Of a DNA stretch of 64,000 nucleotides, positions 34,864-60,241 are shown piece by piece. Source of the DNA: Agromyces bauzanensis (lineage in GTDB: Bacteria > Actinomycetota > Actinomycetes > Actinomycetales > Microbacteriaceae); assembly GCF_014645655.1 (NCBI RefSeq), contig NZ_BMMD01000009.1:1-64000 (forward strand). Reading direction: 5' to 3'. Under the pieces are notes generated by a model that worked only from the letters and a program-made list of their open reading frames with translations, searched no databases and was not told the DNA's origin. Position numbers and translations under genes: made by a program. Positions within the stretch are counted from its first letter, which is position 1; every line of letters starts with the position of its first letter.

Positions 34864-34950
34864 GCGCGAGTGGCGGAATTGGCAGACGCGCTGGCTTCAG
34901 GTGCCAGTACTCGCAAGGGTGTGGGGGTTCAAGTCCCCCCTCGCGCACCA
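34864..34950 (+). tRNA. tRNA-Leu (CAG)
   Basis: Acceptor GCGCGAG pairs with CTCGCGC; anticodon loop TTCAGGT with anticodon CAG; long variable arm typical of class II; T-arm GGGTTCAAGTCCC. CCA is encoded at 34948-34950. Confidence 0.97.
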
Positions 34951-35401: not shown

Positions 35402-36106
35402 TCAGTCGAGCGGCTCGATGAGCGACGGATCCTCGGGGTCGGCGGTGCGCGAGTTGTTGACCTTGCGGTCGACCTCGTAGCTGGCGATGGTCGACGCGAC
35501 CTTCTCGGACTCGGCATCGAGCAGCGCCACCATGTGCTCCTTGCCGGCGTCGTCGAGCTTCACGGGCGCGAGGTACTCGTCCCACGCGTCGCGGTCGAGG
35601 AACACGGGCATGCGGTCGTGCACCTCGCCCGAGGCATCCCGGGCCTCGCGCGTGACGATCGAGGTCGAGACCTCCCACCCGTCGCCCACCTTCCGCGCCG
35701 TGTAGATACCGGCCGCGGCGAGCATCGGCTGCTCGCCGTGCAGGAAGAAGGCCTGCTTGTGCCCGGGCTCGCCCGTCCACTCGTAGTAGCCCCGCATCGG
35801 CACGAGGCAGCGCGATGACGCGAACGCGCCCTTCCAGAGCCCGTTGCTGGCCACCGTCTCGATGCGGGTGTTGAACTGCGGCCGCTTGGACTCCTTCATG
35901 AACGACGGGTGGAAGTTCCACACGGCCGCATCGACAGAGCGGGTGACCTCGCCGGTGTCGCGATTCTGGCGCTCGCGCACGATCGGGATGACCTGGGTGG
36001 GGGCGATCGAGTACTGCGGCCGCCAGTCGCGGTAGTCGCCGCCCTGTGCGACGAACTCCTGGATCATCTCGTCGACCTTGGCGTCGTTGGCGAAGCGTCC
36101 GCACAT
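35402..36106 (-). CDS. SRAP domain (YedK/HMCES-like) protein
   Basis: 234 residues from ATG at 36106, chosen because the catalytic cysteine must be residue 2 (MCGRFAND). Other family motifs: RPQYSIAPTQ, NTRIETV, PMRGYYEW and HDRMPVFL. The protein crosslinks to abasic sites in single-stranded DNA to shield them. Acidic C-terminal tail. Confidence 0.93.
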   Translation of the reverse strand: MCGRFANDAKVDEMIQEFVAQGGDYRDWRPQYSIAPTQVIPIVRERQNRDTGEVTRSVDAAVWNFHPSFMKESKRPQFNTRIETVASNGLWKGAFASSRCLVPMRGYYEWTGEPGHKQAFFLHGEQPMLAAAGIYTARKVGDGWEVSTSIVTREARDASGEVHDRMPVFLDRDAWDEYLAPVKLDDAGKEHMVALLDAESEKVASTIASYEVDRKVNNSRTADPEDPSLIEPLD

Positions 36107-36576: not shown

Positions 36577-37301
36577 TCACAGCGGCCTCCGCAGCGCCGA
36601 CTCGCCACGCTCGAACCGCTCGCGCAGGCCGCCCCAGAGCCGCCCGTCGACCGAGAGGCACGCCGCCACGCCGAACAGGAGGTCGCGGGCCAGGTGCGGC
36701 TCCTCCTCCGCGAGCGCACCGGCGAGATCGCGAGCGGCAAGCTGCTCGTGCACCGCGTCGGCCTCAACGTGCTCGTCGAAGTGGTCGGCGACGTCCTCGC
36801 CGAAGCCCAGCCGCCGCAAGCCGTTCGCGTAGGCGCGGCAGGGCAACGACGACGTCATCTCGTATGCGGCGAGGTGGCCGACGATCGCGCCGCGTAAGCG
36901 CCGCCGGTGCAGGCCGAACAGCGACCGATCGAGCGGCAGGCGAGGATCTCGCGCACCTGCGCTGCGGTGGCATCCCGTTCGACGAACGCCGACAGGCCCG
37001 GCGATCCGTCGTCGCCCACGAGCGCGAACAGGGCCTCGGGCACGCCACGCGTGGCGACCGGTTGCCGCACCGAGCGCCGGAGCGTCTCCTCGAACTCGCA
37101 CTCGCGTTCGATCGGCACGCGCACGGCGAGCGGGCGCGGATCCCACTCCCACGAGTCGGACACGTCCTCGAGCCCGCCGTAGTGCAGCTCGTACATGAGG
37201 AAGAGGGCGAGTTGCACGTCGTCGTCGGTGAGCAGGTCCACGGATGCCGCGAGCCCTTCGGTCGTCGGGTGATGGTCATGACTGCCCCCTCGGTCGGTCA
37301 T
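36577..37301 (-). pseudogene. Iron-containing redox enzyme (haem-oxygenase-like), disrupted
   Basis: The N-terminal part from ATG at 37301 (DLLTDDDVQLALFLMYELHY) stays in frame to about 36930; the C-terminal part (LRGAIVGHLAAYEMTSSLP, then FDEHVEADAVHEQ) is in another frame to 36577. The middle, which in intact relatives carries further helices and metal ligands, is missing. So there is a deletion plus frameshift. It is divergent from the universal stress protein and shares its upstream box. Confidence 0.6.
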
Positions 37302-37358
37302 GCCCCCACCGTACGGAGGTCGCCGCCCGGCGCCGCAGGGGTTGACCGGGAACCCCAT

Positions 37359-37372
37359 GTGACCTTCGGCCC
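37359..37372. promoter_or_regulatory. DevR-like box 1
   Basis: GTGACCTTCGGCCC, 35 bases before the universal stress protein start at 37408. Member of a set of five near-identical boxes in this cluster. Confidence 0.6.
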
Positions 37373-37407
37373 GATCTCCCACGCTCCCCTGCGGCGATGA
37401 TTCGGAC

Positions 37408-37887
37408 ATGGCGGAGACACCGAGGGATCCGAATCCACCAGAGCCGAGCCATGAGCCCGAACCGGGTCCCCCGGGCGTGATCGTCGGCGTCGACGGATCC
37501 GAGTCGTCGGTGGCGGCCCTGCGGTACGCGGCCGACCTGGCGCCGAAGCTGGGCCTCCGTGTGCGTGCCCTCGCGGTGTGGAACTACCCGGTGTTCATCT
37601 ACGGCGGGTACTACCCGCAGATCGACTGGACGCCCGAGGACGACGCCGAGCGCATCGTCGCGCGGTCGGCCGAGGAGGTGTTCGGCACCGAGCTGCCCGA
37701 GTGGTTCGCGACCCGCATCCGTCTGGGGCGCCCGGCCGAGACGCTCATCGACGAGTCGAGGTACGCCGAGATGCTCGTCGTCGGCAGCCGCGGACACGGA
37801 GGGTTCGCCGGGTTGCTCCTCGGATCGGTCAGCGCCGCGTGCGCCGAGCACGCGCACTGCCCGGTGCTGGTCGTGCACGGGCGTTGA
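37408..37887 (+). CDS. Universal stress protein
   Basis: 159 residues, single UspA domain with ATP-binding motifs VGVDGSESS and VGSRGHGGFAGLLLGSVS. Proline- and glutamate-rich N-terminus. Only 5 bases before the metallo-beta-lactamase gene. Preceded by DevR-like box 1. Confidence 0.92.
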   Translation: MAETPRDPNPPEPSHEPEPGPPGVIVGVDGSESSVAALRYAADLAPKLGLRVRALAVWNYPVFIYGGYYPQIDWTPEDDAERIVARSAEEVFGTELPEWFATRIRLGRPAETLIDESRYAEMLVVGSRGHGGFAGLLLGSVSAACAEHAHCPVLVVHGR

Positions 37888-37892
37888 TCCCG

Positions 37893-39284
37893 ATGGCGGC
37901 ACGCCTGCGGTTCCTCGGCGCGGCCGACAGCGTCACCGGTTCGAAGTTCCTCATCGACACCGGCGACACCCGGGTGCTCGTCGACTGCGGGCTGTTCCAG
38001 GGCTTCAAGGTGCTCCGCGAGCGCAACCGCGCGCCGTTCCCCGTGCCGCCCGAGTCCATCGATGCGGTGGTGCTGACCCACGCCCACCTCGACCACTCGG
38101 GGTACCTTCCCGCGCTCGTACGCAACGGATTCCACGGACCTGTGTACACGACCGGCGGCACCGCCGAGCTGTGCGGGGTCATCCTGCCCGACAGCGGGTA
38201 CCTCCTCGAGGAGGAGGCCAGGCACGCGGCATCCGGCCGCTGGTCCTCCCACCGCGACCCGACTCCGCTGTACACGGCGGCGGATGCCACGCGGTCGCTG
38301 GAGCGGTTCGTCCCCGTCGACTTCGACGAGACCCGCCGGATCGGGCGAGAGCTCGTATTCACCCTCGTGCCGGCCGGCCACATCCTGGGGGCCGCGGGCG
38401 TCCGCGTGCGGGTCGGCGGATCCGTCGTGCACTTCACGGGCGACCTGGGCCGGCCGAACGACCCGCTCATGCACCCTCCACGTCCGCTCGAGTCGGCATC
38501 CGTGCTCGTGGCCGAGTCCACCTACGGCGACCGACTGCATCCCCCGGCCGACGTCGAGGAAGAGCTCGGCAGCGTCGTGCGCCGAGTCGCGAAGCGAGGC
38601 GGCGTCGTGCTCATCCCGGCGTTCGCCGTCGGCCGCACCGAGACCGTGCTCCTGCACCTGTCGCGCCTCCGGGATCGCGGCGAGATCCCCGACCTCCCCA
38701 TCTTCCTGAACAGCCCGATGGCGGTCGACGCCGCCGCGATCTACCGACGCCACCCCGAGGAGCATCGGCTCGACTCCGACGAGCTCGCGCGCATGTATGG
38801 GCTCGCCACGCCCGTGCACACGGTCGACGACTCGAAGCTCCTGAACCTTCGCGGCGGACCGATGATCATCGTCTCGGCGAGCGGCATGCTGACCGGCGGC
38901 CGCATCCTGCACCACCTCGTCGCCTACGGACCCGATCGCCGCAACGCGATCGTGCTCACGGGCTACCAGGCGGGCGGCACCCGCGGCTCGACGCTCCTCG
39001 GCGGTGCGACGTCGCTGCGCATCTTCGGCGAGGACGTGCCGATCCGCGCCGAGGTCGTCTCCATCGACGGCATGTCCGCGCACGCCGACGCCGACGAGCT
39101 CATGGCGTGGATGCGCACCGTCGACGAGCCGCCCGACATGGTCTACGTGACGCACGGCGAGGCCGTCGCGTCCGACACCCTTCGCGCCCGCATCAAGCGG
39201 GAGCTCCACTGGCAGGTGCGCGTGCCCGAGCACCTGGAACGCGTGCGGATCGACGCACCCGAACGACAGGAGGTCGCATCATGA
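37893..39284 (+). CDS. Metallo-beta-lactamase/beta-CASP RNase-like protein
   Basis: 463 residues. N-terminal MBL fold with HAHLDHSG metal motif and HFTGDLG; beta-CASP region with LIPAFAVGRTE; C-terminal RMMBL motifs SGMLTGGRILHH and DGMSAHADADEL. The family includes RNases and CPSF-type nucleases. It ends in ATGA overlap with the next stress protein, so it belongs to the stress operon. Confidence 0.9.
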   Translation: MAARLRFLGAADSVTGSKFLIDTGDTRVLVDCGLFQGFKVLRERNRAPFPVPPESIDAVVLTHAHLDHSGYLPALVRNGFHGPVYTTGGTAELCGVILPDSGYLLEEEARHAASGRWSSHRDPTPLYTAADATRSLERFVPVDFDETRRIGRELVFTLVPAGHILGAAGVRVRVGGSVVHFTGDLGRPNDPLMHPPRPLESASVLVAESTYGDRLHPPADVEEELGSVVRRVAKRGGVVLIPAFAVGRTETVLLHLSRLRDRGEIPDLPIFLNSPMAVDAAAIYRRHPEEHRLDSDELARMYGLATPVHTVDDSKLLNLRGGPMIIVSASGMLTGGRILHHLVAYGPDRRNAIVLTGYQAGGTRGSTLLGGATSLRIFGEDVPIRAEVVSIDGMSAHADADELMAWMRTVDEPPDMVYVTHGEAVASDTLRARIKRELHWQVRVPEHLERVRIDAPERQEVAS

Positions 39285-40111
39285 CCGATCACGTGATCCT
39301 CGCCCTCGACGGCGGCGCCGCCAACGCGGTCGCCGAACGCTGGGTGGCCGAGCGGTGGCGGCACTTCGGCGTGGACGTCGAGGTGACGACCGTGCTCGAG
39401 CACGTGCCGCTGGCGGCGGGATACCCCGACGTCGAGCGCGACCGACGTCGGGAGCGGCTGGATCGCGTCGCCGAGCGGTTGCGCGAGCGGCTTCCGGATG
39501 CCACGGTGCGCGTCGTCATGCGCCAGGGCGACATCGTCGACGAGCTCCTCGACGCCTCGAGGTCGGCCAACCTCGTCGTCATCGGCATGACCTATGTCGA
39601 CGCCATCGACGAGCTCGCGCACCTGCCGCTCGGACTGCGCCTCGCGGGCCGCACGAAGGGCGTACTCGTCGTGGTCCCGACCGCGTGGGAGGGCGGCGGC
39701 ACCGGCGTGGTCGCCGGGTGGGATATGGATGCCGCCGGCGAGGCCGCCATGGCGTTCGCCGCCCGCGAGGCGCGGCACGCGGCATCCGCGCTGACCATCG
39801 TGCACGCCGGCCACGGCGACCTGCCACGCGACCTCGAACTCGCGGCCGAGCGGATCCGCGCGAGTCACCCCGAAACCCCGGTGAACGTGGTGCCGAACGA
39901 GCGGTCGGCCGCCGACGCGATCCTCGAGACCGCGCGCGGCGCCGCCCTCGTGGTGGTGGGATCGCGCGGTCGGGGCCCGCTCGAGGACCTGTTCCTCGGG
40001 TCGGTGAGCGAACACGTGCTCGCCAGGTCGTCGGTGCCCGTCGCCGTCGCGCCGGTGCCCGCCGAGCCGATCGACGTGTCGCCGGGCCTCGAGGATGAGG
40101 ACCTCATGTGA
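39281..40111 (+). CDS. Tandem universal stress protein
   Basis: 276 residues, two UspA domains. The first is degenerate (ILALDGGAAN at the start, no full ATP motif). The second has VVGSRGRGPLEDLFLGSVS. ATG at 39281 overlaps the MBL stop. Convergent with the next stress gene. Confidence 0.9.
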   Translation: MTDHVILALDGGAANAVAERWVAERWRHFGVDVEVTTVLEHVPLAAGYPDVERDRRRERLDRVAERLRERLPDATVRVVMRQGDIVDELLDASRSANLVVIGMTYVDAIDELAHLPLGLRLAGRTKGVLVVVPTAWEGGGTGVVAGWDMDAAGEAAMAFAAREARHAASALTIVHAGHGDLPRDLELAAERIRASHPETPVNVVPNERSAADAILETARGAALVVVGSRGRGPLEDLFLGSVSEHVLARSSVPVAVAPVPAEPIDVSPGLEDEDLM

Positions 40112-40119
40112 CGCGAGGG

Positions 40120-40956
40120 TCAGTCCCGCGGCCCGACGATCATGAGCGGCACCGGTAGCGAGACGAGCAGCTCGTGGCTCACCGAGCCCAGGAGGAACCT
40201 CACGACGTTGCCACCGCCGTGGCTGCCGACCACGAGCAGCGCCGAGCCCTCCGCGACCCGCTGCAGCACCTCGGCGGCAGGCCCGGGCTCGAGCCGGCCG
40301 GTCGCGCGTGAGTGGAGGCCCCTGGCGAACTCGACCGCCTCGTCGAGGACGCCGCGGTGCATGTCCTCGAGGGCCTCGACGTCGCCCACGTACTCGCCGT
40401 AGGCCGCGTTCCACCCGGGTGGGATGCTCCACGCGTGCACGACCTCGAGGTCGGCGCCGAGGCGCTTCGCCTCGGCGGCGGCCGTCTCGACGGCTCGCAT
40501 CGACGCGGGGGAGCCGTCGACTCCGACGACGACGGCGGAACGTGCGCCCGTCGTCGGAGCCGACGGGATGACCGCCACGGTTCCCCCGCCGTGACGGCCG
40601 GCCAGTCGGGATCCCACGGTCCAGCGGGAGCCCCGATGCGTCGCTGGTGCGCCCACGACGACCAGCGTGTCGGGGCCGAGCTCCTCGGCGAGCGCGCTGC
40701 TCGGCGAGCCATGCTCGGTCTCGGTCGTGATGCTCAGGTCGGGCCGGCCGGCACGAAGCCGCTCGGCCACCTCCATGAGTCGGACGCGCTCGGTCGACAG
40801 TTCGCCGCCCGCCCGCTGGTACTCGCCCGACGTGGCCGTGCCGCCGATCGCACGCACGATCTTCAGCGGCGTTCCGACTCCGCGGGCGACCGCCCACTCG
40901 AGTGCGGCCTCCGATTCCGGCGTGCCGTCCCAGCCGACCACGATGCGTGTGAACAT
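40120..40956 (-). CDS. Tandem universal stress protein
   Basis: 278 residues, two UspA domains; both keep parts of the ATP motif (VVGWDGTPESEAALEW, VVGAPATHRGS; VVGVDGSPASMRAVE, VVGSHGGGNVVRFLLGS). Preceded by a DevR-like box 35 bases before the start. Confidence 0.92.
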   Translation of the reverse strand: MFTRIVVGWDGTPESEAALEWAVARGVGTPLKIVRAIGGTATSGEYQRAGGELSTERVRLMEVAERLRAGRPDLSITTETEHGSPSSALAEELGPDTLVVVGAPATHRGSRWTVGSRLAGRHGGGTVAVIPSAPTTGARSAVVVGVDGSPASMRAVETAAAEAKRLGADLEVVHAWSIPPGWNAAYGEYVGDVEALEDMHRGVLDEAVEFARGLHSRATGRLEPGPAAEVLQRVAEGSALLVVGSHGGGNVVRFLLGSVSHELLVSLPVPLMIVGPRD

Positions 40957-40991
40957 GACGGCAGGCTGCCCCAGCAGGCGGCGCCGACATC

Positions 40992-41005
40992 GGGTCGAAG
41001 GTCAC
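40992..41005 (-). promoter_or_regulatory. DevR-like box 2
   Basis: Reads GTGACCTTCGACCC leftward, 35 bases before the leftward universal stress protein; the same spacing as box 1. Confidence 0.6.
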
Positions 41006-41032
41006 ATGGGTTTGGCCCAGGGGCGCCGACGA

Positions 41033-41046
41033 GGGACCTTCGGCCC
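41033..41046 (+). promoter_or_regulatory. DevR-like box 3
   Basis: GGGACCTTCGGCCC, 69 bases before the Hsp20 start. A TACGTT at 41069-41074 could be the -10. Confidence 0.6.
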
Positions 41047-41115
41047 GGCCCCGGCATCCGTGGGCTCGTACGTTCGAAGCACACCGGTTGAGCATCGCTC
41101 ATGAAGGGAGCCACC

Positions 41116-41571
41116 ATGGCTGGATCACTCAGCCGCTTCGACCCGTTCGCCGAGCTCTCGGCGCTGCAGAAGCAACTCTTCTCCGAGGGGTTGTTCGGTT
41201 TGGGCCGACGGCCGTTGCCGACCACCGACATCTTCACGGAGGACGACTCGAAGCTGACCGTCGAGGCGCACCTCCCCGGATTCGCGGAGGGCGACATCGA
41301 GATCGACGTCGACCAGGGCGCGCTCGTCATCCGCGCCGAGAAGCACGAGAAGGAAGAGGACAAGGGCAAGAAGTACGTCGTGCGCGAATCGAGCTCGAGC
41401 TACTACCGCCGCATCCAGTTGCCCGAGCAGGCCGATGAGGACGCCGTGACGGCGTTGTTCGAGACGGGCGTGCTGCGGGTGACGGTGCCGTTCAAGGAAC
41501 TGCCGAGCCCGCGGAAGATCTCGATCAACCGCGGCGGGCCGTCCGACGCCGGAGGTGGCGCGGCCTCGTGA
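41116..41571 (+). CDS. Hsp20/alpha-crystallin small heat shock protein
   Basis: 151 residues from ATG at 41116 (MAGSLSRFDPFAELSAL), preferred over the ATG at 41101 because AAGGGAG precedes it. Alpha-crystallin domain with DIFTEDDSKLTVEAHLPGF and ETGVLRVTVP. C-terminal tail KISINRGG resembles the IxI motif. An HspX counterpart in a DevR-type regulon. Confidence 0.93.
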   Translation: MAGSLSRFDPFAELSALQKQLFSEGLFGLGRRPLPTTDIFTEDDSKLTVEAHLPGFAEGDIEIDVDQGALVIRAEKHEKEEDKGKKYVVRESSSSYYRRIQLPEQADEDAVTALFETGVLRVTVPFKELPSPRKISINRGGPSDAGGGAAS

Positions 41572-41617
41572 CGTTCGCGGGCCTGACAGGGGTCCTGGGC
41601 CTGTCCGGCCCGGTCTC

Positions 41618-41631
41618 GGGACCTTGGGCCT
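41618..41631 (+). promoter_or_regulatory. DevR-like box 4
   Basis: GGGACCTTGGGCCT, 34 bases before the PNPOx-like gene. A related GGCCTGTCCGGCCC lies just upstream and may be a second half of a tandem site. Confidence 0.55.
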
Positions 41632-41665
41632 TGCCGACGGATGATCCGCCCGCGAGACTCGAGGA

Positions 41666-42112
41666 ATGACAGACGACGTTGACGACCGACCGCCGACTCG
41701 AGCCCTCACCGAAGACGAGTGCTGGCAACGCATCGCCGAGGCATCCTTCGGGCGTGTCGCGGCGGCGGCGGCCGGCGAGGTCGACATCTTCCCCGTGAAT
41801 CACGCGGTCGACTCGCACGGCGCCGATGCCCGCACGATCGTGTTCCGCACGTCGCCGGGCACCAAGCTCATCGAGCTGACCATCCACGAGGGTGTCGCAT
41901 TCGAGGTCGACGGGTTCACCGACGCCGAGGCGTTCAGCGTGGTCGTCAAGGGCACGGCGGAGCAGTTCGACCGTCGGGGCGAGGTCGAGGCCGCCGAGAA
42001 GCTCGGCGTCACCCCGTGGGCTCCCGAGGAGAAGACCCGGTGGGTGCGGATCACCCCACGCGAGGTGAGTGGTCGCACGTTCCAGCGACGGCGGGTCGCG
42101 CCGGTCGGCTGA
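41666..42112 (+). CDS. Pyridoxamine 5'-phosphate oxidase-like flavin protein
   Basis: 148 residues. Split-barrel fold suggested by FGRVAAAAAGEVDIFPVNHAV, IVFRTSPGTKL and FEVDGF. Close to the DUF/PNPOx proteins found in mycobacterial DosR regulons. Cofactor FMN or F420 not decidable. Confidence 0.82.
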   Translation: MTDDVDDRPPTRALTEDECWQRIAEASFGRVAAAAAGEVDIFPVNHAVDSHGADARTIVFRTSPGTKLIELTIHEGVAFEVDGFTDAEAFSVVVKGTAEQFDRRGEVEAAEKLGVTPWAPEEKTRWVRITPREVSGRTFQRRRVAPVG

Positions 42113-42162
42113 CCGCGTGGCCCGGACGACGGATGCCGCGGGGTCGACCTCGTGGCATCCGC

Positions 42163-42801
42163 TCACCGCGGCTGGTCGCGGTGCTCGAGCTGGTAGACGG
42201 CTGCCTGCGTGCGCCGTGCGAACCCGAGCTTGCGGAGCAGGCCCGAGACGTAGTTCTTGACGGTCTTCTCGGCGAGGTCGAGATGCTCGCCGATCTGCCG
42301 GTTGGTGAGGCCCTCGGCGATGAGGGCGAGCACCTGCCGCTCGCGCAGGTTGAGGGAGCCGAAGCGCGGGTCGTCACGATCCTCGGCCGCGGCGCTCGCC
42401 GCCACCCGCTTCGTGGCGGCGGCATGCAGCAGGTTCCGCCCCCCCGCGGCGGCTCGTACGTGGTCGACGAGCTTCGAGCCGTTGATGTCCTTCAGCACGT
42501 GACCCGACGCCCCCGCGAGCACCGCGCTCATCGCGGCCTCGTCGTCGTCGTACGCCGTGAGGATCAGGCACCGGATCTCGGGATGCCGCGACCGGATCTC
42601 GCGGCACAGCGCGACGCCGTCGCCGTCGGGCAGCCGCATGTCGAGCAGCGCGACGTCGGGCAGGGTGGCGTCGATGCGGGAGAGGGCCCGCGCGACGTCG
42701 CCCGCCTCGCCGACCACCTCGAGGTCGTCCTCGCGTCGCAGCAGCTCGGCGACCCCCCGCCGCACGATCTCGTGGTCGTCCACAAGGAACACGCGCGTCA
42801 T
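42163..42801 (-). CDS. DevR/NarL-type response regulator
   Basis: 212 residues. Receiver domain: acidic pocket VDDHEIV, phosphoacceptor Asp in ALLDMRLPDG, LTAYDD and lysine in VLKDI. C-terminal LuxR-type HTH: LNLRERQVLALIAEGLTNRQI and EKTVKNYVSGLLRKL, strongly like DosR/DevR. ATG overlaps the sensor kinase stop. Proposed to bind the five boxes in this cluster. Confidence 0.93.
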   Translation of the reverse strand: MTRVFLVDDHEIVRRGVAELLRREDDLEVVGEAGDVARALSRIDATLPDVALLDMRLPDGDGVALCREIRSRHPEIRCLILTAYDDDEAAMSAVLAGASGHVLKDINGSKLVDHVRAAAGGRNLLHAAATKRVAASAAAEDRDDPRFGSLNLRERQVLALIAEGLTNRQIGEHLDLAEKTVKNYVSGLLRKLGFARRTQAAVYQLEHRDQPR

Positions 42802-44516
42802 GCGTCGACTCCATCCACCGGGTCCGCGGGAACCGTCCAGCGCACCGTGGTGCGACCGGGCTCGGAATCGATGTGCAGGCGGCCACCGCGGCGTTCGGCG
42901 CGGGTCTGCACGTTCGCGAGGCCGCTGCGCCGGCCCGAGGCGGGGATGCCCGTGCCGTCGTCGTCGACGGTGACGCGCACGGCGGTCTCGTTCGCCACGA
43001 TCGAGAGCCGCACGGTGGAGGCAGAGGCATGCCGGACGGCGTTGGTGAGCAGTTCCCGCGACACGGCGGCGACGTCCTCGGCGACATCGCCGGTGACGAT
43101 GAGGTCGACGGGTCCGCTGAAGCTCACCGCGATGGGCTGGGGCAGCGATGGCGAGCACTCGGCCGCGATGTCGAGGAGGCGGCGGCGGAGCGAGCTGTCG
43201 GCCTCGGGGCGCGGCGACATCGCGAAGATGATGGTGCGGATCTGCGTGATGGTGTCGTCGAGCGTCGTGACCGCCGACTGGAGTCGCCGGGCGAGCTCCC
43301 GTTCCGGGGTCGAGCCCGCGAGCGCCTGGAGTTCGAGACCGGCGCCGAACAGCTGCTGGATGACGTGGTCGTGCAGGTCGCGCGCGATGCGGGAACGGTC
43401 GTCGGCGAGCAGCGCCCGCTGGCGCTCCTCGCGGGCGCGCGCCAGTTCGATCGCCAGGCCCACCTGATTGGCGAGGTCGTCGCCGATGCCGAGCTCGGCC
43501 GGCGTGAAGTGCCCCTTGCCCGGGGCCCGGCCCACGGCCACGACGCCCCAAGCCGAGGACGGGTTCTTCAGGGCCAGGAACATCGTCGGTCCGACGCCGT
43601 CGCCGTCCATGACGGCCAACGCATCGCTGGTGCTTCCCGCCCGCCCGCCCGGTCGCGCGCGGGACTCCCCGCTCTCGAACACCACCGCGGCGGCGGTGCG
43701 CATCCACGGGATCACCGCACCGCCGAGCGTCTCGGCACCGAGGCCGCGCGCCTCGGCGACGCGGACCGTGAGCGGGTCGGGGCCCGGAACGACGATGCAG
43801 ATGCGGTCGGCCCCGGTGCGCGCGATGAGCTCGTCTGCGAGCATCGGCACCGCCGCGGCGCTCGCCGTGCCGAGCAGCGCCGACGTGATCTGCGCCGACG
43901 ACGCGGTCCACGACTGCCGCACGCGCGTCTCGTCGTACAGCCGGGCGTTGGCGATCGCGAAGCCCGCGGTCGCCGCGAGAGCCGTGACCAGGTCTTCGTC
44001 CTCCAGGGTGAACTCGCCCGCTCGCGGGTTCGAGAGGTAGAGGTCGCCGAAGACGTCGTCGCGTACCCGGATGGGCACGCCGAGGAATGCTTCCATCGCC
44101 GGATGCCCCTTGGGGAAGCCCACCGAGCGCGGGTCGTCGGAGATGTGCCGCAGCCGGATGGGACGCGGGTCGTCGATGAGTGCCCCGAGCACGCCGTGGC
44201 CCTCGGGAAGGTGACCGATCCGCGCCACCGCATCGGGAGCCATGCCCACGTGGATGAACTCCTCGAGCCCGCCCTCGGGCGCTACGACGCCGAGCGCACC
44301 GTACTCCGCGTCGACGAGTTCGACGCCGGCCCGGACGATGCGCTCGAGCACCATGGGCAGCTCGATGGGCTCCACCACGGCCTGGGTGGCGTGCAGCAAC
44401 GCCCGCAGGCGGCCCTGCGTGGCGGTCACGTCGTCGGCGCGGTCGACGAGATCGTGCAGCGCTCGGTCCAGCTCCGACCTCGGCTGGTCGGAAGGCGGCA
44501 GCATCCGCTCCGGCAC
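42798..44516 (-). CDS. GAF-domain histidine kinase, DevS-like
   Basis: 572 residues from GTG at 44516. Two GAF domains (about 55-200 and 225-370), HisKA_3 with the phospho-His in SRIARDLHDHVIQQL, and an HATPase domain with VDDDGTGIP and GLANVQTRAERRGG. No membrane helix, so a cytoplasmic sensor; in DevS/DosT the first GAF binds haem and senses O2, NO or CO. Whether a haem-ligating His is kept here cannot be confirmed by eye. Confidence 0.92.
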   Translation of the reverse strand: MPERMLPPSDQPRSELDRALHDLVDRADDVTATQGRLRALLHATQAVVEPIELPMVLERIVRAGVELVDAEYGALGVVAPEGGLEEFIHVGMAPDAVARIGHLPEGHGVLGALIDDPRPIRLRHISDDPRSVGFPKGHPAMEAFLGVPIRVRDDVFGDLYLSNPRAGEFTLEDEDLVTALAATAGFAIANARLYDETRVRQSWTASSAQITSALLGTASAAAVPMLADELIARTGADRICIVVPGPDPLTVRVAEARGLGAETLGGAVIPWMRTAAAVVFESGESRARPGGRAGSTSDALAVMDGDGVGPTMFLALKNPSSAWGVVAVGRAPGKGHFTPAELGIGDDLANQVGLAIELARAREERQRALLADDRSRIARDLHDHVIQQLFGAGLELQALAGSTPERELARRLQSAVTTLDDTITQIRTIIFAMSPRPEADSSLRRRLLDIAAECSPSLPQPIAVSFSGPVDLIVTGDVAEDVAAVSRELLTNAVRHASASTVRLSIVANETAVRVTVDDDGTGIPASGRRSGLANVQTRAERRGGRLHIDSEPGRTTVRWTVPADPVDGVDA

Positions 44517-44596
44517 GGCTCCCCCTCCGATTCGCGGGTTGTCCGCAGGCTATCACCGGTCTCGCGTCACGCACGAGGGCGCGGCCGGGCATCGGA

Positions 44597-44610
44597 GGGA
44601 CCAATGGCCC
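44597..44610. promoter_or_regulatory. DevR-like box 5
   Basis: GGGACCAATGGCCC in the gap between the divergent DevS-like kinase and the next stress protein; 80 bases from the former and 97 from the latter, so it could serve both. Confidence 0.6.
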
Positions 44611-44707
44611 GATGCGCGATGCGCGATCAGGTGATGCTGGGACGAAGCGATCGGTAACATCGCGGCAGCGCCTTCGCCGCGTCGCATCGCAGGAAAGACG
44701 GTGAAGC

Positions 44708-45529
44708 ATGGAACGGGCGATCCTCGTCGGCGTCGACGGCTCGATCGCGAGCCGGGCGGCGGTGGCGTGGGCGATCGAACGGGCTGAGGACATCGGGGCG
44801 GATGTCACGCTGCTGTTCGTGGTCGACGACGAGTGGGGCACGATCAGCGATCGGGACCTCACGGAACTCCGCAGCACTGCCGAGCAGACCGCCGCGCGCG
44901 AGCTCGAGTACGCGCGCGAGCAGGCCGGTGCCGTCGCCGTGAGCGCCCGCGTGGCCGTGGGGGCGCCCATGCTGGTGCTCGCCTCCGAGGCGTCCGCGTT
45001 CGAATCGGTCGCGATCGGCACGCACAAGGCGGGGTCCTTCCACGGCCATGCGCTGGGCTCCCGGAGCCTGCAGCTCGCGGCAATGGCGCCCGTGCCGACG
45101 ACGATCGTTCCCGTCTCGGCGTCACCCGGCCGCAGCGGCGTGGCCGTGGGCGTCGGCGACGAGCCCGGCTGGATGGACCCGGTGCGCTTCGCCGCGCACG
45201 AGGCCGTGCGACTCGGGGAGCGCCTCATGCTCATCCGTTCGGGCGGGCCGGATTCGACCGACGACGAACGGGCCCTCGGCCTCGTGCGGGAACTCCCCGA
45301 GACGAGCGAGCTCGAGGCCGGCATCGTGGTGCGCCGGTCGACCTCGTCGCCCGGCGAGGCGCTCGCCGCGGTGTCACGCCGCGCCGTGGTCACGGTGAGC
45401 GGGCGGCCGACCGCCCCCGGCGTGCAGGGCTTCCGGCCGCTGGGGCGCACGAACAACGATCTGCTCATGAACGCCGGCGGACCGGTGATGATCGTCCCGT
45501 TCCGAGCCGCCGCGCCCGTCACCGCCTGA
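44708..45529 (+). CDS. Universal stress protein
   Basis: 273 residues. N-terminal UspA domain (ILVGVDGSIASRAAVAW); the C-terminal domain lacks a clear ATP motif. The GTAACATC just upstream (around 44653) may be the -10. Last member of the stress cluster, with box 5 upstream. Confidence 0.88.
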   Translation: MERAILVGVDGSIASRAAVAWAIERAEDIGADVTLLFVVDDEWGTISDRDLTELRSTAEQTAARELEYAREQAGAVAVSARVAVGAPMLVLASEASAFESVAIGTHKAGSFHGHALGSRSLQLAAMAPVPTTIVPVSASPGRSGVAVGVGDEPGWMDPVRFAAHEAVRLGERLMLIRSGGPDSTDDERALGLVRELPETSELEAGIVVRRSTSSPGEALAAVSRRAVVTVSGRPTAPGVQGFRPLGRTNNDLLMNAGGPVMIVPFRAAAPVTA

Positions 45530-59314: not shown

Positions 59315-60241
59315 GTGCCGTCGAACGACCTTCAGGACCAGGATGCCACGCTCCGCCGTCGGAGGTTCACGGGCGCCGCGACGCAGATCGGCACCGAGGT
59401 GTCGATCGGCTTCGGATCGTCGCTGGCCGGTCTTGTCATTCCGATCGTCGGATCGTTCGTCGTCGTCACCGCGCGGCAGCTCGTGACCGTGCTCGCGATC
59501 CTGCCGTTCTACCGGCCCAAGCGGGCCGAGCTCACCTGGCGGCGCCTCTGGCCGGCGCTCGCGCTGGGCGTCGTGCTCGCGGTCATGAACCTCGCGTTCT
59601 ACGAGTCGGTGCACCTGTTGGGGCTCGGCATCGCGGCGACCATCGAGTTCCTCGGGCCCATCGTCCTGGCGCTCGCGACATCGAGGCGCCTCCTCGATGT
59701 CGTGTGCGTGCTCGCCGCGGGCGGTGGCGTGATGCTCCTCATCGGCCCCGGGTCCTCGGATGCCTCGGCGATCGATCCGTGGGGCCTCGCACTCGCGCTG
59801 ACGGCCGCGGCGAGCTGGGCGGCCTATATCGTGCTCACGCGTCGCGTCGCCGTGGGGCTGCCGGGCCTCGAGGGACTCACCGTGGCGAGCATCGTGAGCC
59901 TCGCGCTGCTGCTGCCGTTCGCGGTCGTGACCTTCGACCCGGCCGCCGTCGACTGGCGGGTCGCGGGCCTGCTTCTCGGCGTCGGGGTGCTCGCGTCGGC
60001 GTTGCCGTACAGCCTCGACACGTTCATCCTCCGCCGTATCACGCCGCGGCTGTTCGCCATCATCACGAGCTTCGGCCCGGTGATCGCGGCGCTGTTCGGA
60101 TGGCTCGTGCTGGCGGAGACGTTCACGATCGTGGAGATCGCGGCCATCCTCATCGTCTGCGGAGCGGCATTCACCGCCATCGCCACTCAGCGCGAGCGTC
60201 CGAGCAGCGACCTCGAGCGGACGGCGGCGGGCCTGGCATAG
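59315..60241 (+). CDS. EamA-family (RhtA-like) exporter
   Basis: 308 residues from GTG at 59315 (PSNDLQDQDATLRRRR); GTG at 59312 also possible. Ten membrane helices in two EamA repeats; motifs FYESVHLLGLGIAATIEFLG and ALPYSLDTFILRRI fit the threonine/homoserine exporter group. No ribosome binding site; a leaderless start is possible. Confidence 0.88.
   Translation: MPSNDLQDQDATLRRRRFTGAATQIGTEVSIGFGSSLAGLVIPIVGSFVVVTARQLVTVLAILPFYRPKRAELTWRRLWPALALGVVLAVMNLAFYESVHLLGLGIAATIEFLGPIVLALATSRRLLDVVCVLAAGGGVMLLIGPGSSDASAIDPWGLALALTAAASWAAYIVLTRRVAVGLPGLEGLTVASIVSLALLLPFAVVTFDPAAVDWRVAGLLLGVGVLASALPYSLDTFILRRITPRLFAIITSFGPVIAALFGWLVLAETFTIVEIAAILIVCGAAFTAIATQRERPSSDLERTAAGLA

Follow-up and report, generated by a model that had tools for sequence, protein, structure and literature searches.

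A probable DevR-DevS-type stress regulon with five putative operator boxes in Agromyces bauzanensis

Introduction

The closest described relatives of the system considered here are the DevR (DosR) regulator of Mycobacterium tuberculosis, with the haem-sensing kinases DevS (DosS) and DosT, and the OsdR-OsdK pair of Streptomyces coelicolor. We focus on a cluster of nine genes and five putative DevR boxes in Agromyces bauzanensis, located at positions 37359-45529 of a 64,000-nucleotide stretch of contig NZ_BMMD01000009.1, hereafter the window. According to the available part of PMC5069765, devR of M. tuberculosis is preceded by the universal stress protein (USP) gene Rv3134c, the OsdR box of S. 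coelicolor has the consensus AGGGCCGATCGGCCCT, and a listed site at SCO5979, CGGGACCTTCGGCCCT, is situated in an intergenic region that is reported to be bound in gel shifts. The same part of that paper reports that Streptomyces OsdR binds the promoters of M. tuberculosis DevR targets in addition to its own similar sites, so that the Agromyces system would be a further member of that kind.

With regard to Agromyces, Microbacterium or the Microbacteriaceae as a whole, no published report of a DosR/DevR regulon was found in the literature covered, which leaves out most subscription journals. The cluster very likely represents a DevR-DevS (DosR/OsdR-type) two-component, haem-sensing stress regulon, with boxes standing at USP, Hsp20 and related stress genes, as in DosR-type regulons. 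It would provide a compact model of a DosR-type oxygen switch in an environmental (soil) bacterium, with an unusually clear promoter layout, and it defines a candidate box, a promoter geometry and a likely wider regulon among Microbacteriaceae relatives.

The Five Boxes and the Motif Learned from Relatives

The initial annotation of this DNA had listed five near-identical boxes, and all five are present at the positions and on the strands given there. Matches to a loose consensus (at most three mismatches) are not enriched in the window (45 versus a shuffle mean of 41.7), so that the raw count is weak evidence when taken alone; since a plain consensus count cannot tell the boxes from chance, a matrix learned from relatives was used instead. 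A motif was learned, with random starts, from 350-base stretches directly upstream of devS in 77 of the 80 named loci of relatives; of the other three, L154 and L168 are without upstream DNA and L173 had been omitted from the list. The motif converged on CAGGGCCGAAGGTCCC, the reverse complement of box 3 plus two extra bases, with a log-likelihood of 286 (60 seeds); two dinucleotide-shuffled sets, each run with 30 seeds, reached 102 and 103. When the 64 kb are scanned with this matrix, the five boxes rank first, and the window holds five sites of at least 14 bits, versus a mean of 0.32 and a maximum of 2 in 50 shuffles. Four of these five boxes are not at devS and are thus independent of the training regions. 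The sixth-ranking site (13.8 bits) is an exact copy of box 2 at 59927-59940, within a transporter-like coding sequence, and is probably due to chance.

The box distribution in the 80 named loci follows the same pattern. Intergenic boxes number 227, a count that includes the devS-upstream training regions, versus 15 with the reversed matrix, whereas coding DNA holds 37 versus 42. Genes with a box at most 250 bases upstream comprise 74 of 129 USP genes, 15 of 35 PNPOx (pyridoxamine-5'-phosphate-oxidase-like) genes and both Hsp20 genes, versus 2, 0 and 0 in the control; the corresponding figures are 42 of 74 for devS, which overlaps the training set, 2 of 15 for the ribonuclease, 99 of 945 for other genes and 0 of 66 for devR (control 0, 0, 10 and 0). 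Genes were called with a simple program based on codon usage, which fails in some lower-GC loci and gives approximate starts. Random scatter of the boxes, with no enrichment at stress genes, named in the initial annotation as the contrary outcome, is not what was found.

These data bear on the idea that the boxes are chance GC-rich palindromes of a GC-rich genome. The unenriched loose consensus agrees with it, as does the small genome-wide excess of sites within one mismatch of GKGACCWTNGRCCC (59 versus 31 for the reversed control). Nevertheless, with the matrix ranking the five boxes first, an approximately 15-fold intergenic excess and none in coding DNA among relatives, and a common spacing of all five to a -10-like hexamer, chance appears scarcely credible as the origin of the boxes.

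The DevR Regulator and the DevS Kinase

DevR comprises a receiver and a LuxR-type helix-turn-helix domain, and its best solved match is the DevR of M. tuberculosis (Table 1), with which it shares an identical recognition helix, EKTVKNYVS. Four residues, D54, K179, K182 and N183, the last three of which we take to be base-contacting, are conserved in all 76 DevR proteins found among the 81 rows of a residue survey in which one A. ramosus site figures twice (L169 and L185). For A. ramosus, the gene caller had pointed to an absence of devR, a reading that was rejected because tblastn finds the gene.

DevS carries GAF, HisKA_3 and HATPase_c domains, and its GAF domain matches those of DosT and DevS; a DevS match of 87% occurs in Agromyces sp. 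H66. The equivalents of the proximal His149 and the distal Tyr171 are kept in GAF-A; in the survey, all 81 rows have the distal Tyr and 80 of them the proximal haem His. The position of DosS Glu87 is occupied by glycine in 79 rows (one alanine, one unaligned), so we call the kinase DosT-like. According to the available part of PMC4082495, the complex that DosT forms with oxygen is stable. The initial annotation had proposed a DevR-like regulator coupled to a GAF kinase; both protein matches and key residues support this pair, the kinase being of the haem-GAF (DevS/DosT) type.

We infer that DevR binds the five boxes and activates the associated genes in the operons outlined below, and that DevS binds haem, responds to a gas and transfers phosphate. 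In the proposed sequence of events, DevS would hold haem in its first GAF domain, and loss of bound oxygen, or binding of NO or CO, would lead to its autophosphorylation. The phosphate would pass to Asp54 of DevR, which would then bind the GGGACC-N4-style boxes just upstream of the -10 element, replacing the -35 contact (class II activation). Targets would be usp1-ribonuclease-usp2, usp3, hsp20, pnpox and usp4, together with a few distant sites.

Co-Occurrence of Box and Kinase Across Genomes

Using a search at E 1e-80, at which a diverged kinase could be missed, DevS is detected in 13 of 36 same-genus relatives in addition to the genome studied here. The pattern GGGACCWWNGGCCC occurs in 41 copies in the 14 Agromyces genomes with DevS versus 7 in the 23 without it (Mann-Whitney p 3.3e-6); with the genome under study left out, 37 copies remain (p 6.5e-6). 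As a control, the reversed pattern is seen 12 times in the genomes with DevS and 26 times in those without it. Three Agromyces genomes without DevS retain, between the same flanking genes, a relative of pnpox (G009) or of usp3 (G019 and G031), and no box of at least 11 bits lies directly upstream of it; in G031, a single 14.5-bit site is found inside a called open reading frame about 2 kb from the usp3 relative.

The boxes might belong to a different regulator, another NarL-type or general stress regulator, with DevRS merely nearby. Indeed, the genome holds four other NarL-type regulators sharing 40-43% identity with DevR over nearly the full length, any of which could in principle bind the boxes, and boxes are also found far from devRS. 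We consider this improbable, since box number tracks the presence of DevS over 37 Agromyces genomes, the recognition helix is the one found in M. tuberculosis DevR, and the 14-mer of box 3 is contained in the S. coelicolor OsdR site CGGGACCTTCGGCCCT, as given in the available part of PMC5069765.

Several observations, to which these paralogues belong, nonetheless weigh against control of the boxes by DevR. One genome with DevS (G007) lacks any perfect box, and one or two are present in 6 of the 23 Agromyces genomes without DevS. Outside the genus, at the order level, the link is looser, with 28 boxes in 7 genomes with DevS versus 17 in 16 without it, six of these 17 boxes being in G058. The GTG-variant boxes 1 and 2 score lower than the others, and 19 of the 20 GTGACC-type sites outside the cluster lie inside called genes, so these two boxes rest on position and spacing. 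In relatives, only 2 of the 15 genes related to the cluster ribonuclease have a box directly upstream. Finally, no box is found at the cydA locus of this genome, a point taken up below.

Promoter Layout and Predicted Leaderless mRNAs

Alignment of 218 boxed promoters of relatives reveals a TANNNT-like element 23-24 bases after the end of the box, followed by G-rich sequence; a perfect TANNNT is present in 22 of them at offset 23 and in 9 at offset 24. The five window boxes are located 22-23 bases upstream of a -10-like hexamer, with NANNNT at offset 23 or 24 in all five when read toward usp1, usp3, hsp20, pnpox and usp4 (background rate at the two offsets, 4.8%) and the full TANNNT in the hsp20 promoter only. 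This spacing implies that the box covers about -48 to -35.

The same geometry bears on translation starts. Among 225 boxed genes, in-frame ATGs are concentrated at a gap from the box of 34 (18 genes), 35 (13) or 36 bases (6), which makes 37 genes in 25 loci; the counts at neighbouring gaps are 2 at 33, 0 at 37-40, 3 at 41-44 and 3 at 26-32. A second, broad class begins at gap 45, with up to 11 ATGs at one distance; for genes with several boxes, the box whose gap was nearest 45 was taken. Shine-Dalgarno-like tetramers precede 6 of the 37 short-gap genes, some of which have a later in-frame ATG that may be the true start, versus 93 of 176 leadered boxed genes and 331 of 1040 unboxed genes. In the window, the initial annotation had placed three boxes 34-35 bases before the start codon, and distances of 35, 35 and 34 are indeed measured for usp1, usp3 and pnpox. 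The ATG of each of these genes would coincide with the transcription start, giving predicted leaderless mRNAs of a spacing class that recurs in relatives. By comparison, hsp20 has a leader; its ATG at 41116 is preferred, and another at 41101 is also possible.

In M. smegmatis, about one quarter of transcripts are without leader, according to the available part of PMC6448022. The predicted leaderless class of Agromyces resembles these mycobacterial transcripts, but it goes with a constant distance of 34-36 bases between box and ATG within one regulon, and no description of such a class was found in the parts of the literature examined. Leaderless transcription of dormancy-type genes thereby becomes a directly testable prediction. 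More speculatively, the DevR box could act in Microbacteriaceae as a ruler which, placed 34-36 bases before the ATG, obliges part of the low-oxygen regulon to be leaderless; these messages would then be translated by another initiation route once ordinary translation declines, and the co-regulated CPSF73-like ribonuclease would help to remove other mRNAs. Although we regard this scheme as doubtful, it would mean that dormancy is controlled at transcription and message selection alike.

Orientation of Box 5

Box 5 lies 80 bases from the start of devS. For 45 boxes upstream of devS in relatives, a -10-like hexamer is found toward devS in 2 cases and away from it in 28 (background 4.8%), and a box is present upstream of devS in 34 of 36 loci where the upstream gene is divergent versus 3 of 25 where it is codirectional. 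By this geometry, box 5 is taken to serve the divergent gene, here usp4. The earlier statement that each box precedes a stress or kinase gene therefore stands for the USP, Hsp20 and PNPOx genes and finds no support for the kinase gene. In M. tuberculosis, devRS is subject to positive autoregulation through a box, a trait that is not strictly defining for a DosR-type regulon. Such autoregulation via box 5 is unsupported here, as the -10-like element points away from devS, although a site at another distance may act; DevRS may thus be expressed without such a positive loop.

The Likely Wider Regulon and the Signal

Nine exact GKGACCWTNGRCCC sites are present in the genome, of which seven lie outside called genes, three of these belonging to the cluster. 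Among the one-mismatch sites, 57 of 59 were classified, 20 as intergenic and 37 as inside genes, the remaining two being window boxes 4 and 5. One distant intergenic box precedes a GH15-like hydrolase gene, followed by glucose-6-phosphate-dehydrogenase-like and CoA-disulfide-reductase-like genes; others precede a sulfatase-like gene and the gene of a TM2-like small protein (all names read from translations). The box before a 63-residue membrane protein is followed by TAACTT at offset 23.

Two further distant sites were noticed. A high-scoring box at C1:192467-192480 (L059:6468) has the usual -10-like spacing, and no open reading frame of at least 60 residues starts within 99 bases on either side; a small RNA is possible at this place, and a terminator scan found none. 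At C1:233181-233224 (L060:17182, 17212), two boxes 30 bases apart lie between cation/proton-antiporter-like and Xaa-Pro-peptidase-like genes, as read from translations.

In relatives, 87 of 88 boxed genes outside the families of the cluster were scanned. Among the 25 of 58 families listed, the 87 genes comprise 13 for zinc alcohol dehydrogenases, 7 for flavodoxins, 5 for BON proteins, 3 each for cytochrome bd subunit I and phosphoketolase, and 2 each for PPDK and nitroreductase, a set that fits low-oxygen metabolism.

Instead of oxygen, DevRS could sense redox state, NO, CO or some further stress, and govern a general stress response, not a dormancy or hypoxia programme. The cluster, which codes mostly for universal stress proteins and Hsp20, agrees with this idea. 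So does the cydA locus of this genome, which was considered as a target and rejected, no box being found there at 9 bits, even though cytochrome bd genes are boxed in relatives. Conversely, the glycine at the DosS Glu87 position points to the DosT-like type of kinase, and the cytochrome bd oxidase, phosphoketolase, alcohol dehydrogenase and PPDK genes just listed argue for low oxygen. A signal other than oxygen is thus unlikely, albeit a serious contender, and oxygen remains the preferred signal for the DevR-DevS regulon.

Gene Content of the Cluster

A Pfam scan of the nine cluster proteins, together with their coordinates, gives the gene content listed in Table 1. The genes on the strand opposite to the others are usp3 and the pair devR and devS, which overlap by 4 bases. 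The genome contains five universal-stress genes (seven domain matches), four of which lie inside this cluster of about 8 kb. Cotranscription of the ribonuclease with usp1 is assumed. A relative of this TTHA0252/CPSF73-like enzyme, located here between two USP genes, was found in 15 of the 80 named devS loci.

Divergent from box 1, a minus-strand gene at 36577-37301 is split over two reading frames (pseudogene or sequencing error). Both pieces correspond to a single gene that is intact in a relative (L095:17318-18367), coding for an iron-containing redox enzyme of the Haem_oxygenas_2 type.

Table 1. Putative boxes and genes of the cluster (window positions; E values from Pfam or PDB matches)
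Feature	Position	Strand	Assignment and evidence	Box to start codon (bases)	Promoter features
Putative DevR box 1 GTGACCTTCGGCCC	37359..37372	+	usp1 promoter; 14.5 bits	35	-10-like GATGAT at offset 24; predicted +1 at ATG
usp1	37408..37887	+	universal stress protein, single domain; PF00582 E 2.5e-25	35	predicted leaderless
beta-CASP/RMMBL ribonuclease, TTHA0252/CPSF73-like	37893..39284	+	Pfam; PDB 2dkf (Ribonuclease TTHA0252) E 1.1e-72; same strand as flanking usp1 and usp2		
usp2	39281..40111	+	tandem universal stress protein; PF00582 E 9.3e-22; overlaps ribonuclease gene by 4 bases		
usp3	40120..40956	-	tandem universal stress protein; PF00582 E 1e-30	35	predicted leaderless
Putative DevR box 2 GTGACCTTCGACCC	40992..41005	-	usp3 promoter; 14.4 bits	35	weak -10-like CAGCCT at offset 24
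Putative DevR box 3 GGGACCTTCGGCCC	41033..41046	+	hsp20 promoter; 20.0 bits	69 (to ATG 41116)	TACGTT at offset 23
hsp20	41116..41571	+	small heat-shock protein; PF00011 E 5.1e-21	69	leader with Shine-Dalgarno-like AAGGGAG
Putative DevR box 4 GGGACCTTGGGCCT	41618..41631	+	pnpox promoter; 15.0 bits	34	GAGACT at offset 23
pnpox	41666..42112	+	pyridoxamine-5'-phosphate-oxidase-like; PF12900 E 2.5e-28	34	predicted leaderless
devR	42163..42801	-	NarL/LuxR-type response regulator; PDB 3c3w (DevR) E 3.3e-67; D54, K179, K182, N183 kept		
devS	42798..44516	-	haem-GAF-type histidine kinase, DosT-like; His138, Tyr160, Gly76, kinase His382; PDB 2vzw (DosT) E 6.7e-42, 2w3d (DevS) E 3.4e-40		
Putative DevR box 5 GGGACCAATGGCCC	44597..44610	+	between usp4 and devS, geometry toward usp4; 20.3 bits	97	GATGCT at offset 23 toward usp4
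usp4	44708..45529	+	universal stress protein, divergent from devS; PF00582 E 1.4e-20	97	

Genomic Site

The cluster is flanked by genes at 35405 (SRAP-like) and 46395 (DNA-glycosylase-like), named from their translations and 10.3 kb apart here. These flanks abut in four genomes without DevS (G008, G014, G025 and G027), with 73 to 202 bases between matches; the interval measures 5.5 to 13.2 kb and varies in content in G007, G009, G019, G029, G031 and G035, and in the remaining genomes the flanks are found at other distances, on separate contigs, or one of them is not found. DevS lies between the flanks in 4 of the 14 genomes that have it (this one, G007, G029 and G035) and elsewhere in the others, as far as matches show. 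The site is thus variable, and the locus occupies more than one place in the genus.

The patchy presence of the locus, and flanks that are adjacent in relatives lacking it, are features of a genomic island. No integrase or transposase is present among the nine cluster proteins according to Pfam, the flanks and ends not having been searched, and the GC content is 72.0% in the cluster versus 69.6% in the window. The earlier qualification of the island as portable is partly supported by this distribution and can be kept as fair but unproven. A tRNA-Leu(CAG) gene at 34864-34950 is located about 0.5 kb beyond the SRAP-like gene.

Comparison with Known Systems

The Agromyces cluster resembles the DevR/DosR-DevS/DosT system of M. 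tuberculosis in its recognition-helix residues, its haem-GAF kinase and its GGGAC-type boxes. In M. tuberculosis, Rv3134c and devR form one autoregulated operon, whereas here usp4 is divergent from devS-devR, with the box oriented toward usp4. The Agromyces cluster also differs by its CPSF73-like ribonuclease and by the single DevS-like kinase found, which is DosT-like. The target families, USP and heat-shock protein, are shared with the M. tuberculosis regulon as presented in the available part of PMC5069765. From the same part of that source, the S. coelicolor OsdR-OsdK system is similar in that its targets near the regulator include USP, nitroreductase and PPDK. Unlike the system described here, OsdR also binds developmental genes, while the motif of the Agromyces clade is distinguished by GGGACC at one half-site and its promoters by a class predicted to be leaderless.

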